From: Pseudomonadota bacterium | GTDB lineage: Bacteria > Pseudomonadota > Gammaproteobacteria > Burkholderiales > Burkholderiaceae_E | Reading direction: 5' to 3' | Assembly: GCA_029779435.1 (NCBI GenBank) | Contig: JAKPAM010000036.1 | Location: forward strand, 62,001-126,000 | Length of the DNA: 64,000 bases | Shown: positions 55,779 to 64,000 of the stretch, piece after piece | How the letters are laid out: every line of letters begins with the position of its first letter | Numbering within the stretch: position 1 is the stretch's first letter | Notes under the pieces: model-generated | Seen by the model: only the letters and a program-made list of their open reading frames with translations | The model's database searches: none | What the model was told of the DNA's origin: nothing | Position numbers and translations under genes: made by a program

Positions 55779-56111
55779 TCAAGCGCCGATCAGGGCGGCC
55801 AGCACGGCTGTCGCCAACGCGGTTCCCGCCAGCATGGGCAGCGCGCGGGGGCGGTAGGTCAGGGCCAAGCCGACCGCCATGGCCGCGAAGGTGGCGATGC
55901 CGAGGCAGGCAGCGATCGCGATCGACGTGTTCCATCGCACCAGGCAGACGGCCAGCGCGGCGGCCAGCAGCAGCCAGCCGGCAGCGCGCCAGCCCAGTGC
56001 GGCGCGACGGCCGACCTCGCGCCCCAGGACCTGGAGCTGATGCCGGGGCATGGCGAGGCTCAATGCGCAGAACGCGGCGAAGCCGAGGGCCGAAGCGGTC
56101 CAGATCGTCAT
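55779..56111 (-). CDS. DUF3325-like small membrane protein
   Basis: MTIWTASALGFAAFCALSLAMPRHQLQVLGREVGRRAALGWRAAGWLLLAAALAVCLVRW; terminal position in a PepSY/TonB receptor operon. Confidence 0.8.
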   Translation of the reverse strand: MTIWTASALGFAAFCALSLAMPRHQLQVLGREVGRRAALGWRAAGWLLLAAALAVCLVRWNTSIAIAACLGIATFAAMAVGLALTYRPRALPMLAGTALATAVLAALIGA

Positions 56112-57784
56112 GTCGGTCGGACCTGTGCGGCGCCACGGGGCGCGGTGCGGGCAAGCGGCTGCGAAGGACGCAGCAGCCGCCACGCGATGAATCCGTGCAC
56201 GGCGCCGAGCGCCAGCATCGCCAGGTCGAAGCCGGCGATCGCCCATTGGCCCCGCATCAACGTCACGGATAGTCCGGCCCCTCCGGTAGCGACGTTCAGC
56301 AGCGGCAGCGTCGCGAACAGCACGGCGGCCAAGCCGAGCTGCTCGATCCAGGCCGAGCGGTGCGCGCGCAGCCCGGCGTGCACGAGGCTGGCCAGCCATG
56401 CGGCAAAGAACACGTGGATCTCCCAATCGCTGCGGTCGGCCAGCTCGGCGGGTAGCAGCCGGTTGCTCCAGAAATACGCGGCGACCGCCAGCGACAGGCC
56501 GGCGATGCCGGCGACGTTCAGCACCTCGACGAGACGGTGTCCGCGCGGCGTGCGGCCGAGCTTGCGGCGTTCGGGAAGCCGCTTGACGACCCACAGCACC
56601 ATGCCGGTGCCGACCATCAGCGTGCCCGCGACGCCCGACAGGAACAGCAGCCAGCGCACGGCCGGGCCGGCGAAGCGGCCGAGATGGGCGGCGCTCGTGA
56701 CGTTGTAGATGGCAGTGGAAACCGATGGAGTCGGTGCGTCGGAGCCCGGCCGCGGTTGGCCGCTGCCGGCATCGAAGACCAGGCGCTGGGGGGCGCCGCG
56801 CTGGACGAGGCTGTTGCCTTCGTCGCTGCGCAGCTCGATGCTGGCCCGGGCGGTATTCGGTTGCTGCACGACGATCGTACCGACCCGAGTCCCGTCCCAT
56901 TGCGCCTGTGCCGCGGCGATCATCGGACCGATCGGTGCCATCGGCGCGATCCGCGCTTTTTCGTTGTCGTTGTCGTTGCCGGTACGGCGCCCACCTCGTT
57001 CGCCCGCCTCTCCGGCGGGCCGGGCCGTCGCTTGCGGCGACCCGGCCGGCGCGGCGTTGGCCGTGCCGCGCCGTTCGGCCAGGTAGCGCTGCGTATCGCC
57101 CTGGTAGACGCTGTCGACGCCCCACGGCATCAGCATCAACATCAGCAGCAGCAGGCCGCTGAACGTGATGACGATGTGGAACGGCAGCGCGAGGACGGCC
57201 AGCGCGTTGTGCGCATCCAGCCATGAGCGCTGTCCCTTTCGCGGGCGGAACGTGAAGAAGTCGGTGAAGATCTTCTTATGCGTGATGACGCCGCTGATGA
57301 TGGCGACGAGCATCGCCATCGTCGCGATCCCAACGATCCAGCGACCCCAGATCCTCGGCATGCCGTGCAGCTCGAAGTGGAAGCGGTACAGGAAGCTGCC
57401 GCCGCGCGTGGCCCGCGTTTCGATCGGATCGCCGGTCGCCGCGTCCAGGTCGGCTCGCTTGGTGCCCGCGCGTCCCGCCGGTGCGTCGGCTGGTCGCCAA
57501 CTGGCGCCGACGAAGGTCTGGCGCGGACCGGGCAGCGACAGCGTCCAGTTCGAGGCGTCTGGCGCCAGCCGCTGCATGCCGTCGATCGCGCGCTGCGGGG
57601 TGTCGGGCATGGGCACCGATCGATGCGATTCGGGCTTCATCCATGCGTTGACTTCGTCGACGAAGTAGCTGAGCGTGCCGGTGAAGAACACGGCGTAGAG
57701 CAGCCAGCCGAGCAGCAGGCTGCTCCAGGTGTGCAGCCAGGACATGGACTGGCGCACGCCCTCGGGTTTGCCGTCCGGTCTCAT
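56108..57784 (-). CDS. PepSY-associated TM helix domain protein
   Basis: SMSWLHTWSSLLLGWLLYAVFFTGTLSYFVDEVNAWMKPE; FHFELHG; SWLDAHNALAVLALPFHIVITFSGLLLL. Confidence 0.92.
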   Translation of the reverse strand: MRPDGKPEGVRQSMSWLHTWSSLLLGWLLYAVFFTGTLSYFVDEVNAWMKPESHRSVPMPDTPQRAIDGMQRLAPDASNWTLSLPGPRQTFVGASWRPADAPAGRAGTKRADLDAATGDPIETRATRGGSFLYRFHFELHGMPRIWGRWIVGIATMAMLVAIISGVITHKKIFTDFFTFRPRKGQRSWLDAHNALAVLALPFHIVITFSGLLLLMLMLMPWGVDSVYQGDTQRYLAERRGTANAAPAGSPQATARPAGEAGERGGRRTGNDNDNEKARIAPMAPIGPMIAAAQAQWDGTRVGTIVVQQPNTARASIELRSDEGNSLVQRGAPQRLVFDAGSGQPRPGSDAPTPSVSTAIYNVTSAAHLGRFAGPAVRWLLFLSGVAGTLMVGTGMVLWVVKRLPERRKLGRTPRGHRLVEVLNVAGIAGLSLAVAAYFWSNRLLPAELADRSDWEIHVFFAAWLASLVHAGLRAHRSAWIEQLGLAAVLFATLPLLNVATGGAGLSVTLMRGQWAIAGFDLAMLALGAVHGFIAWRLLRPSQPLARTAPRGAAQVRPT

Positions 57785-58140
57785 GCAAGCCCTCCGCGAG
57801 ACCAGACCGCCCATGCGGCGAGGGGCGCCGCGGGCAGCACGATGCCCAGCCAGGCGCGCCATGCCGTGGCGCAGCCGAAGGCCCATAGTACGGCCACCGC
57901 ATGGACGACGAAGCTGAGCATGGTCGCGGCCAGTACCGCGTCGGCCCGGGCCATGTCGGCTTGCGCGAGCATCAGGCCGAGTCCGGCGGCCGTCGCGGCG
58001 GCCAGCGCATAGCCGCCGCCCACCGCGGCCAGCGCGCGCGAGGCGACGGCCCAGCGGTAGCGGGACGGCGGCACGGTGACCTTGGCCGTGCGCCCGCCGG
58101 TGGCGCGGCCGGCGGCTTGGGGAGGCGATGTCGGATTCAT
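57781..58140 (-). CDS. DUF3649-like membrane protein
   Basis: SRYRWAVASRALAAVGGGYALAAATAAGLGLML; between TonB receptor and PepSY gene, 4-nt overlap with the latter. Confidence 0.82.
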   Translation of the reverse strand: MNPTSPPQAAGRATGGRTAKVTVPPSRYRWAVASRALAAVGGGYALAAATAAGLGLMLAQADMARADAVLAATMLSFVVHAVAVLWAFGCATAWRAWLGIVLPAAPLAAWAVWSRGGLA

Positions 58141-58186: not shown

Positions 58187-60817
58187 TTAGAACGTGATCT
58201 GCGCGGTCAGCACCACGCGTCGGCCCGGACCGTAGATCAGCGTGCCGGTCGGCGGCGCGGTGCTGCCGACATAAGTGGTGCGGTCCATCACGTTGGCCAC
58301 ATTCAGGTTCACGTTCAGGTCATTGCCGTTGACCCGGTACCGCCAGAACAGCCCCAGGTCGAGGACGCCGTAGCCGGCGATCCAGTCGGCGCCGCTGGCC
58401 GTGTAGGTCGTGTGCATCCTGCTCTGCGCGCGCAGGCCGACGCCCAGCGACAGCGATCCCCACGGCGAGCCCTGCACCAGCGAGACGCGATTCCACAGTG
58501 ACAGGCCGTGCCTGGGGATCGATGCGAACGATCGCCCGCGCTGGAACGTGTCCTGGGTCTCGACGATCTCGGTGTCCAGATAGGTATAGGCGAGCGACGC
58601 CTGCCAGCCGCGCAGGATCTCGCCCGACAGCGTCACTTCGACACCCTGCGAGCGCTGCAGGCCGTCGAGCGTGTACGCGCAGTAGAACGGGTCGGCCGGG
58701 TCGGTCACCGTGCTGTCGCAGGTGGTCGCGTTCTCGGCCCGCGCGATGTTCTTCTTGTCGATGCGGAACAGCGCCAGAGTGAACAGGCCCGCACCGTCGT
58801 TCAGATCCTGCTTGTAGCCGATCTCGTACTGCACACCCTGTTCGGGCTTGAGCAGCGCATTGCCCGATGCGTCGCGCCGCGTCAGCGACGGCTGCGGCGC
58901 GAACGACTGCCCATAGCTGGCGTATAGCGTCGCGTGCGGCGTGATGTCGTGCATCGCCGCCACGCGCGGTGTCCAGCGCTGGGTCTTGAATGGCGTGTCG
59001 TCGGCGCGCACGCCGGTGTTCCAGTTGTAACTGCCGCGCGCCAGGTTGTCGTACTGCGACCAGCCGGCTCCGATCATCAATCGCGTGCGGCCATCGGGCA
59101 GATGGATCAGGTCCTGCAGGTAGAAGTTGGTATCGCGGCGCTCGGCCCACGGCACCATGAATGCCGATTGCGACATCACGACGTCGCGCCACGGCCAGAC
59201 GCCGTTGTCCAGCGTGTCGATGTCGAGCGGTAGCGCGCCATAGCGTCCGGGTCGCACGACGGCGCCAGTCCGCGGGTTGACGTAGCCGCCCGTATCGAAC
59301 TCGCCGCTGACGGTGGGCCGGCTCATGCTGCGCGTGCGGCTGATGCCGTAGCCGATGCCGGCGAGCCAGTCGTGGCGCAGGCCTCCGGTGCGCAGCTTGC
59401 CCGATACGTCGACGCCTCCGGACAGGCTTTCCCATTGCGACGGCGGCGAGAAGCTTACCGAGCGGGGGATGCGGCCGTCGATCGGATCCGGCGGCGTGCC
59501 GCCGCCGCCCGAGCCCGAGGGGCGCGTCACCTGGTACCACTGCTCGGAGCGCTGCCAGCTCAGGTTCGCGGCGATCTTCAGATCGTCCGCGGGTCGCCAC
59601 AGCGCGTTCCACAGCAGCGTATCGGCTTCGCGGCGCGCGCGATCGTTCAGGTGACCGAGAAACGACTGGTCGCGCGGGATCGGATAGTACTCGCCGTTGA
59701 CCGTCTTCTTGTTGTTCTCCTTTTCGGGGACGGCGCGCACGTCGGTGCGTTCATAAGTGAGCGTGCTGTCGAAGCGCGGCGACGGATTCCAGCGCAACGC
59801 GGCGAGGAAGCTGTTGGGCTTGGACCAGACGTGCGCCTGGTCGTCCTCGTAGCGCGACAGGCTGCCCACCAGCCGGTATTGCACCGTCTTGTCCGCATTG
59901 AGCGGTCCGGTCAGGTCGGCCATCGTCGCGATGCTGCCTTCGCTGTCGGTGCGCGCGCGCAGCACGTAGCGCGCGTCGGCGCGAGGGCGTTTGTAGTTGT
60001 AGTTGAAGACGCCGCCGGGCTGCGCGGCCCCGTAGTACAGCGAGGCGGGCCCGCGCAGCAACTCGACCGATTCCAGGCTGTCCGTGCCGCGCATGCCGGC
60101 GCCGCCGCCGTAGATGCGGTTGCCGTTGATCAGCATCTGGCCGTCGTTGCCGCTGGCGTTGCTGAACCCGCGCACGCTCAGGTAGCGGTCCATGCCGATG
60201 CCGATGTCCGATTGGCCGTTGTTGGCCGTCACGCCGGTGAAGCGTTCGATCGTGTCGTAGATGTTCTGATCGCCGCGCTCGACGATCAGCGTCTCGCTGG
60301 CCTGGAAGACGCTGAAAGGCGTCATGCGGGGCGGCAGGTCGATCTTGGTCGCCACGCTGCTGAGCCGGTCGGCGACATAAGGCGATGCCGGTTCGCGCGA
60401 GGCGGATACCGTGATCGCCGGCAGTGTCTGCGACGTCCCCGCGGAAGCGGGCGGTGCGGAGGCGGCGGGTGCCGCCGCTGCCTGGCGAACGCTGAGCGCG
60501 CCGCTGGCGGTCGTCATCAGTTCGAGGCCGGTGCCGCGCAACGCTTGGCGGATGGCATCGGTCGCGCGCATCGTGCCCTCGACCGGCGATGCGCGCTTGC
60601 CTTCGAGCAGCACCGGCTCGGCGACGAGGCTGCGGCCGGATTGACGGGCGATGCGCCGCAGCGCGTCGCCCAGGTCTCCCGCCGGAATCGTGTAGTGCTG
60701 GACGTCGTCGGCCGCCTCGGAGGGCGTGGACGGGGATTGCGCGTTCACGGGTGACGCGAAGGACAGGACGGCCAGGGCGGCAAGCGCCAGCGCCGTGGGG
60801 CGGCAAGACAACGACAT
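58187..60817 (-). CDS. TonB-dependent siderophore receptor with N-terminal signalling (STN) domain
   Basis: Signal peptide; STN HYTIPAGDLGDALRRIARQSGRSLVAEPVLLEGKRASPVEGTMRATDAIRQALRGTGLEL; plug TPFSVFQASETLIVERGDQNIYDTIERFTGV; C-terminal LIYGPGRRVVLTAQITF. Confidence 0.96.
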   Translation of the reverse strand: MSLSCRPTALALAALAVLSFASPVNAQSPSTPSEAADDVQHYTIPAGDLGDALRRIARQSGRSLVAEPVLLEGKRASPVEGTMRATDAIRQALRGTGLELMTTASGALSVRQAAAAPAASAPPASAGTSQTLPAITVSASREPASPYVADRLSSVATKIDLPPRMTPFSVFQASETLIVERGDQNIYDTIERFTGVTANNGQSDIGIGMDRYLSVRGFSNASGNDGQMLINGNRIYGGGAGMRGTDSLESVELLRGPASLYYGAAQPGGVFNYNYKRPRADARYVLRARTDSEGSIATMADLTGPLNADKTVQYRLVGSLSRYEDDQAHVWSKPNSFLAALRWNPSPRFDSTLTYERTDVRAVPEKENNKKTVNGEYYPIPRDQSFLGHLNDRARREADTLLWNALWRPADDLKIAANLSWQRSEQWYQVTRPSGSGGGGTPPDPIDGRIPRSVSFSPPSQWESLSGGVDVSGKLRTGGLRHDWLAGIGYGISRTRSMSRPTVSGEFDTGGYVNPRTGAVVRPGRYGALPLDIDTLDNGVWPWRDVVMSQSAFMVPWAERRDTNFYLQDLIHLPDGRTRLMIGAGWSQYDNLARGSYNWNTGVRADDTPFKTQRWTPRVAAMHDITPHATLYASYGQSFAPQPSLTRRDASGNALLKPEQGVQYEIGYKQDLNDGAGLFTLALFRIDKKNIARAENATTCDSTVTDPADPFYCAYTLDGLQRSQGVEVTLSGEILRGWQASLAYTYLDTEIVETQDTFQRGRSFASIPRHGLSLWNRVSLVQGSPWGSLSLGVGLRAQSRMHTTYTASGADWIAGYGVLDLGLFWRYRVNGNDLNVNLNVANVMDRTTYVGSTAPPTGTLIYGPGRRVVLTAQITF

Positions 60818-60862
60818 CGACGGAAATCTCTCCAGGGCAGGCCGCATCGCGCGGCAATGCCA

Positions 60863-60893
60863 GGAAGACGCACGACGCGGGCAAAACCCCTCA
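60863..60893 (-). promoter_or_regulatory. candidate FecI-type ECF promoter upstream of the TonB receptor
   Basis: Minus strand tgaggggttttgcccgcgtcgtgcgtcttcc contains a GGGGTTTT block followed by CGTC; pattern judgement only. Confidence 0.3.
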
Positions 60894-60914
60894 TCGCGCG
60901 GGAAAGATGTCCGG

Positions 60915-62249
60915 TCATCGGGCGTCGATCCACGTGATCCATCCGCTGAAGCGCCTCACGGCGATCGGCAGCGCATCGGCCAACATGCGCAACGCCCGCT
61001 GAGGTTCGTCGAGCGGGAACACGCCGAATACCCGCAGGGCCGCCGCCTGGGTGCTGATCCGTATCAGTCCGTGCTGATAGGGCCGCAGCGCCGCCACGAC
61101 CTCGCCGAGCGGCGCATCGCGGACGTCGAGCACGCCATCGGTCCAGGCCGCCTGCGCGTCGCTGCTGGTGCCGATCTCGATATGGGCGTCGCCGTGCCGC
61201 CATGCGAGCGACTGCCCGACGGCCAGCGCATGCGGCATCCCGGACGGATCGAACCACCGCGCATGGCCGGTGAGCAGGGCGATCGACGTGTCCGACTCGC
61301 CCCGCCTGGCCAGGATCCGTGCCGGCGCATCGCCGGATGCCTGCAAACGTGCCGGACCCGACCGCAACACGAACGGTTGGGGCCGGGCGTCGACCTCGAT
61401 CATGCATTGGCCGCCGAGCAGCGTCAGTTCGCGTGCGCTGGCGCTTATCCGGTAATTGGCGCCCGATCGCGCATCGAGCGTCAGCACCGAGCCATCGGCG
61501 AGGGCGATCCGCCGGCGCTCGGCGGTGCGCGTATGCCAGTCCGCCAGCAGCGAGCGCGGCGGCAGTTGCTCGTTGAGCACGATCCCGCCGCTGCCGAGGA
61601 CCAGCATCGCCAGGCCGCCCTGCAACGCGCGGCGCCGGGCCCGCGACGGCGATGTCTTGCGCTCCGTCAGCACCTGATAGCTGGCTTGGCGGATGCCTTC
61701 GTGGCGTGCATCGATGTCGCGGATCCGCGCCACCGGCGCGGCCGCGTCGCCGACCTGGCAATGCAGGCCTGCCCGCCGGACATCGCGTTCCACCGTCGCG
61801 AGGGACACGCCCATGTGCGCGGCGATCGCGGTGTGCGCCATGCCTTCGAGCCGATTGAGCAGGAATGCTTGCCGACAGCGCAGCGGCAGGCCGTCCAGCA
61901 TCCGGTCGATGCTCTCGATCGCCTCGCGCAGCAGCGCTTCGTCCTCGGCCGACGGCGCCACGGCGAGGGGTTGCCGGGCCAGCACGTCGAGCCAGCTCGC
62001 TTCGAGCGCCCGCCGCCGCCAGAAGCTGGACAGCAGGCGCCGTGCCAACGTCGCCAGATAGGCTTTCGGTTCGTCGATCGTCCGGGCGTCGCTGAACGTC
62101 AGCACGCGAACGAAGGTGTCCTGCGACAGATCCGCGGCATCGTCGACGCTGCCGAGCCTCCGGCGCAGCCAGTCCTGCAGCCATTCTCGATGTTCGGCGT
62201 ACAGGGTGTGGACGGCTTGCTCGTTGGTGATCGGATCGGCGGCACCCAT
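60915..62249 (-). CDS. hybrid FecI-like ECF sigma factor / FecR-like anti-sigma transmembrane regulator in a single ORF
   Basis: Residues 1-164 sigma2/sigma4-like (LYAEHREWLQDWLRRRLGSVDDAADLSQDTFVRVL...LPLRCRQAFLLNRLEGMAHTAIAAHMGVSLATVERDVRRAGLHC); residues ~209-225 TM (LQGGLAMLVLGSGGIVL); then FecR-like DWHTRTAERRRIALADGSVLTLDARSGANYRISASARELTLLGGQCMIEV and a C-terminal STN-like region. Confidence 0.9.
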   Translation of the reverse strand: MGAADPITNEQAVHTLYAEHREWLQDWLRRRLGSVDDAADLSQDTFVRVLTFSDARTIDEPKAYLATLARRLLSSFWRRRALEASWLDVLARQPLAVAPSAEDEALLREAIESIDRMLDGLPLRCRQAFLLNRLEGMAHTAIAAHMGVSLATVERDVRRAGLHCQVGDAAAPVARIRDIDARHEGIRQASYQVLTERKTSPSRARRRALQGGLAMLVLGSGGIVLNEQLPPRSLLADWHTRTAERRRIALADGSVLTLDARSGANYRISASARELTLLGGQCMIEVDARPQPFVLRSGPARLQASGDAPARILARRGESDTSIALLTGHARWFDPSGMPHALAVGQSLAWRHGDAHIEIGTSSDAQAAWTDGVLDVRDAPLGEVVAALRPYQHGLIRISTQAAALRVFGVFPLDEPQRALRMLADALPIAVRRFSGWITWIDAR

Positions 62250-62267: not shown

Positions 62268-62286
62268 TTTAATGCAAATGATTCCG
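62268..62286. promoter_or_regulatory. candidate Fur box upstream of the sigma/anti-sigma hybrid
   Basis: tttaatgcaaatgattccg matches 11 of 19 positions of GATAATGATAATCATTATC, 19 nt upstream of the ATG at 62249. Confidence 0.5.
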
Positions 62287-62417
62287 ATTCTACATCATCG
62301 ATCTTTGAGCAAGCCCTCGCGCATCGTCGAACCTTTCCAGGACCTGTCGGTCTTGCCGACGCGGCACGGCGCACAATGCGCAGATCCGCGCACCGACCCG
62401 AACGACGAGGAGACCCC

Positions 62418-63518
62418 GTGCCCGAACTGCTGTCCGCCGAACTGATCGCCCTGCGTGAGCGCACCGCCGCACTGGCCCGCGGCCCGCTGGCCGCGCTGCG
62501 CGACGACGCGTCGCTGACCGACGCCGAGCGGGGCGCCCGCGTGCGCGCCGCCAGCAAGGAAGCCGGCCTGTACGGACTGACGCAGCGCGACGACACGCCG
62601 GCATTGGCGCTGCTGGTGGCGCGCGAGACGCTGGCGATCCACGGCGTCTCGATGCTGCGGGGCCTGTTCGGCGCCGGCGGCGGCGTGCTGGCGGCGGTTG
62701 GCGAGCCGCTGCGCTCGACGCACCTGCTGCCGATGCTGGCGGGCGACAAGGTCGCCGGTTTCGCGATCACCGAGCCTCGCGACACGCCCCTGCCTACCCA
62801 TGCGACCGTCGACGGCGATGATCTCGTGGTCACGGGCCGCAAGTCCTACGTCACCGGCGGCGCCGATGCGGATTTCCTGACCGCGCTGGTCGACGTCGAC
62901 GGGCTGGGCCCCTCGATGGTCGTCATCGATACCGATCGGCCGGGCGTGCGCGTGACGCGCCGGTTTTCGTCGCTCGACGGCAGCCACCATGCGGCGTTCG
63001 CGTTCGAGCAGGTGCGCGTGCCGCGCGCCCACGTGATCGGCGCCCCGGGCGACGGGCGCTCGCGGGCGTTGGACAAGATCAGCGCGGTACGCCGGGCCGT
63101 GGCGGCCGACTGCGTGGGAACGATGGCCTGGCTGCTGGATGTGGTCGCGGGCGAGCTTCAGCGCGAGCGCAAGGGCGGCGCCAAGGGGGCGCAGGATCGC
63201 ATCCGGCTGCGGTACGGCGAACTGCGCGCGGCCGCGTATGCGGCCCGCTCGATGCTGTACCGGACGGCGAGGCTGGCCGATGCCGGCGAGAACGTCGTCA
63301 ACGAGACGATCGCGTCCAAGGTGTTCGCCAGCGAACTGGCGAACCGCATCGCCGACGAGTCGGTGCAATTGATCGGCGGCGAGGCACTGGTCGTCGGGCA
63401 CCCGGTGGAGCGGGCGCTGCGACGCGTGCGGGCTTATCGGCTGGCCGAAGGCGACAGCGACACGCTGTACGTGAACCTGTCGCGCGGGTTTCTCGACTAC
63501 GGGCTCGGTCGGATCTGA
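62418..63518 (+). CDS. acyl-CoA dehydrogenase family protein
   Basis: C-terminal part of ORF 60726..63518; VPELLSAELIALRERTAALARGPLAALRDD; AGFAITEPRDTPLPTHATVDGDDLVVTGRKSYVTGGADADFLTALVDVD; DESVQLIGGEALVVGHPVERALRRVRAYRLAEGDSD. GTG start. Confidence 0.88.
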   Translation: MPELLSAELIALRERTAALARGPLAALRDDASLTDAERGARVRAASKEAGLYGLTQRDDTPALALLVARETLAIHGVSMLRGLFGAGGGVLAAVGEPLRSTHLLPMLAGDKVAGFAITEPRDTPLPTHATVDGDDLVVTGRKSYVTGGADADFLTALVDVDGLGPSMVVIDTDRPGVRVTRRFSSLDGSHHAAFAFEQVRVPRAHVIGAPGDGRSRALDKISAVRRAVAADCVGTMAWLLDVVAGELQRERKGGAKGAQDRIRLRYGELRAAAYAARSMLYRTARLADAGENVVNETIASKVFASELANRIADESVQLIGGEALVVGHPVERALRRVRAYRLAEGDSDTLYVNLSRGFLDYGLGRI

Positions 63519-63562: not shown

Positions 63563-64000
63563 CTAGTTCGCCTGGCGCGTCGGGATCTTGTTGAACGGGA
63601 TCCCGCGGTCGGCGCGCATGTCGGCCGGCAGGCCCAGCACGCGTTCGGCAATGATGTTGCGCAGGATCTCGTCGGTTCCTCCTTCGATCCGCGTCGCGGG
63701 CGAGCGCAGCAGCATCGCCTGGAAGCGGCCGGACGCCTCGACGCGGGCCGGATCCATCGCGATGCCGGCCTGGCCCTGCAGGTCGAGCGCGAACGTCGCG
63801 ATCTCCTGCAGCGTCTGGCCGGCCACCAGCTTGCCGATCGAGTTCTCCGGGCCGGGCGTCTGACCCTTGGACAGCGCCGAGATGCTGCGGTACGCGGTGT
63901 AGCGCAGACCGCTGGTGCGCACGGCCCAGGTCGCCAGCCGGGAGCGCACGGCCGGATCGTCGACCGCCAGGCCGCCGCCGGTGTCGAACGTGCAGCACAG
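63563..64000 (-). CDS. acyl-CoA dehydrogenase, C-terminal portion, continues beyond window
   Basis: QTPGPENSIGKLVAGQTLQEIATFALDLQGQAGI...RFQAMLLRSPATRIEGGTDEILRNIIAERVLGLPADMRADRGIPFNKIP. Confidence 0.9.
   Translation of the reverse strand: MCCTFDTGGGLAVDDPAVRSRLATWAVRTSGLRYTAYRSISALSKGQTPGPENSIGKLVAGQTLQEIATFALDLQGQAGIAMDPARVEASGRFQAMLLRSPATRIEGGTDEILRNIIAERVLGLPADMRADRGIPFNKIPTRQAN

Follow-up and report, generated by a model that had tools for sequence, protein, structure and literature searches.

The window, i.e. the whole 64,000-nt stretch of DNA that was analysed, contains at positions 60,915–62,249 of the minus strand one reading frame of 444 codons that runs from an ATG start to a TGA stop with neither an internal stop codon nor a frameshift. 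An earlier sequence-only reading had described this ORF as a single-polypeptide FecI-FecR hybrid consisting of a sigma domain up to about residue 164, one transmembrane helix and a FecR-like periplasmic region. The open frame, the domain matches in Pfam and NCBIfam and the hydropathy profile bear this description out, to which we add the strand. Among the four Pfam domains considered in that reading, sigma70_r2, sigma70_r4 and FecR gave matches and DUF4880 is absent. Sigma70 region 2 covers residues 16–81 (62,007–62,204; PF04542, E 3e-9; AlphaFold2 pLDDT mostly >90) and region 4 covers residues 112–160 (61,770–61,916; PF08281, Sigma70_r4_2, E 1.2e-12). The AlphaFold2 model is confident over the sigma half, where the positions invariant in the FecI alignment are retained, and the FecI-family models of NCBIfam cover residues 6–165 with E values of 1e-46 to 1e-51 that lie below the equivalog and subfamily cut-offs. 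Residues 1–164, with complete regions 2 and 4 of the FecI type in Pfam, represent a FecI-type iron-starvation ECF sigma factor (ECF243) and are followed by about 40 cytoplasmic residues before the transmembrane helix. This helix is predicted at residues ~208–226 (61,572–61,628), the hydropathy maximum (mean 1.45) and sole hydrophobic segment of the hybrid, which aligns with the transmembrane helix of FecR. The remaining residues 227–444 (60,918–61,571) form a complete FecR/PupR-type periplasmic domain, in which Pfam FecR matches residues 237–330 (E 1e-9). This half matches PupR (6ovk) in sequence (E 7e-14), and its predicted fold is similar to the same structure (Foldseek TM-score of 0.87 on the target, E 9e-18). 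A second ORF of 479 codons (60,745–62,184), which overlaps the hybrid in another minus-strand frame, carries no domain and was rejected as spurious, since many long spurious frames are expected in high-GC DNA.

Downstream of the hybrid, and also on the minus strand, the gene of a TonB-dependent siderophore-type receptor of 886 aa begins after 67 nt (58,187–60,847). Its plug and barrel are recognized by Pfam, and TIGR01783 matches with E 9e-58, below the cut-off. The receptor N-terminus (60,470–60,739) matches the signalling domains of FemA, FoxA, PupA, PupB and FecA in the PDB (E 2e-8 to 3e-3), while Pfam STN reaches only E 0.03. By these PDB matches the neighbouring receptor indeed bears a FecA/PupB-type STN domain, as had been proposed from the sequence. 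The next two genes encode a small DUF3649-like membrane protein (57,781–58,140; Pfam E 3e-4, just below the cut-off) and a PepSY_TM membrane protein (56,108–57,886; PF03929, E 1e-66), which is likely an iron-siderophore accessory protein. Genes of both types often accompany siderophore receptors. On the other side, an acyl-CoA dehydrogenase gene (62,418–63,515, plus strand) diverges from the hybrid, and a convergent ORF that leaves the window (63,563–64,000, minus strand) resembles by eye an acyl-CoA dehydrogenase C-terminus; neither has an apparent link to iron. Upstream of the hybrid, TAGAATCGGAATCATTTGC (62,274–62,292) resembles a Fur box and also TAGAATACGAATCAATCTC, which lies upstream of a fecI of the same genome (L003), and both may possibly constitute a shared iron operator or promoter. 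This best Fur-box match comprises 12 of 19 positions and is equalled by ~2% of random 130-nt stretches, and we do not claim a Fur box here. A scan for sigma-70 promoters returned no candidate.

The junction between both halves can be read residue by residue. The FecI part ends with LHC164, after which the six residues QVGDAA (165–170; 61,740–61,757) lead into APVARIRDIDARHEGIRQASYQVL...RARRR, the cytoplasmic juxtamembrane part of FecR (residues 171–207; 61,629–61,739), which is partly helical by prediction. When aligned with the FecR proteins of eight split pairs, half of which belong to the genome of the hybrid, and with nine further proteins, this part falls between DUF4880 and the transmembrane helix of split FecR, its equivalent in the pair L107 being EPVRQIHRIDQHHPGQLPAVHRSL...GRQRRR. 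Since residues 171–207 align with the juxtamembrane tail of split FecR proteins, they represent inherited FecR sequence and no new linker. The Arg-rich linker of the sequence-only reading is thus a remnant of FecR. By Pfam, all eight FecR proteins from split pairs, including the four from the same genome, possess both DUF4880 and FecR, whereas DUF4880 was not detected in the hybrid. Likewise, the E. coli FecR model of NCBIfam aligns to residues 190–437 and is entered only at model position 64, so that the hybrid has no counterpart of the first 63 residues of FecR, and the loss of DUF4880 suggested by the sequence-only reading is confirmed. A DUF4880 hidden in another frame was rejected as well, because the other reading frames of the locus contain no Pfam domain. 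The hybrid hence possesses the FecR/PupR periplasmic domain, but not the organization of a classical FecR as a separate protein with an N-terminal DUF4880.

Compared to its split relatives, the hybrid is shorter at the junction by 173–224 nt (n = 11 measured). The gap length is 2 mod 3 in all 11, with fecR and fecI in different frames, and in most split relatives the two genes overlap by ATGA. At the sequence level, the ORF is best described as a FecI-FecR pair minus ~173–224 nt comprising the fecI stop, the fecR start and DUF4880. The GC content at the three codon positions is 0.73/0.53/0.85 over the whole hybrid and 0.76/0.57/0.86 in the linker, and as this register continues unbroken across the junction, there is no frame switch. 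Neither a frameshift nor an overlooked stop codon can account for the junction, given the additional ~173–224 nt and the different frames in the relatives. For the same reasons, a single-base sequencing error, which had been named as a possible refutation of the fusion, is excluded as its cause: where fecI and fecR occupy different frames, neither a stop-codon error nor any other single-base error can create the fusion. A deletion of ~180 nt could yield it, be it real or introduced during assembly.

As the source genome is fragmented into 289 contigs and 84% complete, the deletion could stem from faulty assembly, with ~180 nt of an ordinary split fecI/fecR pair dropped at 61,740–61,757. Exactly this piece would have to be restored to give an ordinary locus, and all homologues found are split. 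We nevertheless consider such an artefact unlikely, because the open frame was left despite the different frames of fecI and fecR in 11/11 relatives, a one-in-three event, and because DUF4880 was removed yet the whole juxtamembrane tail kept, an arrangement close to that of the working hybrid IutY of Pseudomonas putida.

To what extent relatives share the fusion was addressed by searching the hybrid in genomes of its own family (n = 74), its order (n = 399) and its class (n = 143 and n = 370), as well as in the family (n = 81) and genus (n = 17) of genome G439 and the genus of genome G208 (n = 43), both of which carry similar split pairs. In these ~1,190 genome searches of overlapping sets, neither a match spanning both halves nor a second fused copy was obtained; since scoring in the large sets covered only the top few candidates of each genome, a rare fusion may have escaped detection. 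No fused homologue was obtained from plasmids or named genome contigs either, the plasmids yielding split pairs only, and matches in Pseudochrobactrum that appeared as one piece are annotated as two genes and were discarded. Every homologue found is split, including the other four systems of the same genome, and none is a close orthologue: the nearest are ~55% (sigma) and 43% (FecR) identical, and their receptors only ~26%. Uniformly split homologues in close relatives had been named as a possible refutation; such uniformity is seen here, but at this distance it does not decide against the fusion. Close orthologues of the hybrid or its receptor were absent from the genome contigs, and for the receptor no close relative was found in plasmids, the scanned genome contigs or 300 genomes of the order, where it matched only itself. 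The fragmented assembly together with the absence of a second copy limits our confidence.

We further compared the periplasmic half with IutY, for which mutations at D210, R231, F251, V253, W301 and L313/317/320 deregulate the protein and make it constitutive (PMC5411451). D210, R231, F251 and V253 correspond with identical spacing to D252, R273, F293 and L295 of the hybrid, and W301 and L313/317/320 to W369 and L381/V385/L388, the leucine positions being read by eye. The signalling residues D252, R273, F293 and W369 are thus conserved, and both halves of the hybrid look intact. The Gly-Thr self-cleavage site of the FoxR/FecR type is absent, as the hybrid reads ASGDAPARIL where others have ALGTRF, which indicates a processing different from that of classical FecR proteins; the motif is likewise absent from the cluster of the G208 genus. 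In the FecR tree, no end branch is longer than that of the FecR half (1.25, median 0.26), and it also exceeds the end branch of the sigma half in its own tree (0.45, median 0.098). The FecR half hence shows the faster change of the two, which could mean relaxed constraint.

The intactness of the protein bears on the question of whether the locus is decaying, i.e. whether a recent and real chance deletion has left a non-functional product or a constitutively inactive sigma factor. The fusion is a singleton in the searched sets, the branch of its FecR half is long, and E. coli FecI requires the region lost here for its activity. Set against this are the lack of any stop codon or frameshift in the hybrid ORF, the retained conserved sigma and signalling residues, the intact receptor and promoter motif (see below) and the fact that IutY, which combines a cytosolic sigma and a periplasmic anti-sigma domain, works. 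Decay hence appears to us quite improbable, even more so than an error of assembly.

Between the hybrid and the receptor gene, just upstream of the latter, lies a putative target promoter of the sigma domain (60,867–60,893, minus strand), TGAGGGGTTTTGCCCGCGTCGTGCGTC, which has the form TGAGGGGTTTTGCCCG-N2-TCGTGCGTC. Its core TGAGGGGWTTT occurs once in the window, but in none of 100 shuffles (0 expected). The shorter motif TGAGGGGWTT is found between fecR and the receptor gene in 18/21 split members of the sigma clade of the hybrid vs 1/60 others (Fisher p 5e-14, uncorrected for relatedness), and it is absent from the four split FecI/FecR systems of the same genome. Since the receptors are only ~26% identical, recent common ancestry of the DNA is unlikely as the reason for the shared motif. 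We thus read the motif as a candidate target promoter of the sigma subgroup to which the hybrid belongs, and its retention in front of the receptor gene argues for the hybrid being functional.

The closest split systems that we found are the FecI/FecR pair of G439 (L107) and the cluster of the G208 genus (L097–L106), with identities of 51–58% for sigma and 37–43% for FecR. They have the receptor-promoter motif in common with the hybrid, but are organized as two overlapping genes (most with ATGA), contain DUF4880 and are accompanied by receptors that are ~26% identical. E. coli FecI/FecR and Pseudomonas PupI/PupR belong to the same domain families and share the periplasmic fold, but they are separate proteins, and FecR residues 1–59, which bind and activate FecI, are absent from the hybrid. 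ECF52 and other extended ECF sigma factors resemble the hybrid in their membrane-anchored C-terminal extension, for which proteolysis has been proposed (PMC8999054), but these extensions are unrelated to that of the hybrid, as they are not FecR and act without a TonB-dependent receptor.

The best precedent remains IutY (ECF243, aerobactin system), the only hybrid of such design that has been studied (PMC5411451, PMC9249621), and its citation in the sequence-only reading is well founded in this published work. Both proteins combine a FecI-type sigma domain, one transmembrane helix and a FecR-type periplasmic domain in one polypeptide beside a TonB-dependent transducer, and the signalling residues of IutY are kept in the hybrid (PMC5411451). 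All structural features of the IutY type that could be compared are present, namely an ECF sigma factor and FecR in one frame, a single transmembrane helix, no separate DUF4880 (which IutY lacks according to the descriptions in these papers) and an adjacent receptor with a signalling domain. By its published description, IutY is shorter (374 aa compared to 444 aa), its sigma domain ends at ~164, the transmembrane helix seems to follow almost directly and the periplasmic part begins at ~187 (PMC5411451). A 168-residue IutY variant comprises sigma only. The hybrid, by contrast, keeps the ~40-residue juxtamembrane tail of FecR. The two also differ in receptor and lineage. That the IutY architecture arose a second time and independently, in a different lineage and FecI subgroup, by an excision of DUF4880 that left a longer tail, is in our view about as probable as not.

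Taken together, we regard the ORF as probably encoding a functional one-protein regulator of cell-surface signalling of the IutY type, which would have arisen by deletion from a fecI-fecR pair and be released by RseP after periplasmic trimming. In its origin, the stop of fecI, the start of fecR and DUF4880 would have been deleted, which joined the sigma factor to the juxtamembrane tail, transmembrane helix and periplasmic domain of FecR. By analogy with IutY, the sigma domain would, without a signal, be held inactive at the membrane and not be clamped by a DUF4880. Upon binding of a ferric ligand by the neighbouring receptor, the receptor signalling domain may contact the periplasmic FecR domain, which a periplasmic protease would trim before RseP cuts within the membrane; the freed sigma domain with its short FecR tail would then drive the receptor promoter at 60,867–60,893. 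For IutY, an experimentally proven hybrid, it is known that release involves trimming of the periplasmic domain by Prc and intramembrane cleavage by RseP (PMC5411451, PMC9249621). RseP (M50 and two PDZ domains, L120) and a CtpA-type S41 protease (L121) are encoded in the genome of the hybrid, and a Tsp-type Prc was not recognised in this 84% complete genome.

Classical FecR residues 1–59 bind FecI and convert it to the active form, and in E. coli they are required for FecI activity (PMC9249621, PMC7406223). As the hybrid lacks these residues, tethering would have to replace binding, and the sigma domain would have to be active alone; with the DUF4880 clasp missing, it is probably the cut in the membrane that switches the sigma factor on. 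Lacking DUF4880, the sigma domain might be inactive, but IutY is a counterexample, since its 168-residue fragment is active on its own. A route without proteolysis can also be envisaged, in which the helix at ~174–197 folds onto sigma region 4 in cis as an anti-sigma segment and release follows from partial unfolding of the periplasmic domain. The retained FecR tail is predicted to be helical and the hybrid has no FoxR-type Gly-Thr autocleavage site, but model confidence is low for the tail and gives no packing information, and both IutY and FecR depend on RseP (PMC5411451, PMC8144685). We consider this route very improbable and favour release by RseP.

IutY has been described as unique. Another natural hybrid, whose junction can be read and whose ancestor can be recognised, would reveal what cell-surface signalling can lose without breaking, in this case the DUF4880 clamp, to which FecI binds in E. 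coli and by which it is activated. If the second origin holds true, membrane tethering and intramembrane proteolysis suffice, and DUF4880 is evolutionarily dispensable in fused proteins; if the fusion is an assembly error, the locus is an ordinary FecI/FecR system. As the target promoter motif is common to the split relatives, the function of the hybrid is testable in a simple reporter strain. Apart from the hybrid, the candidate ECF motif TGAGGGGWTT...CGT precedes the receptor genes of one FecI subgroup (L097–L109) and is useful for regulon prediction.
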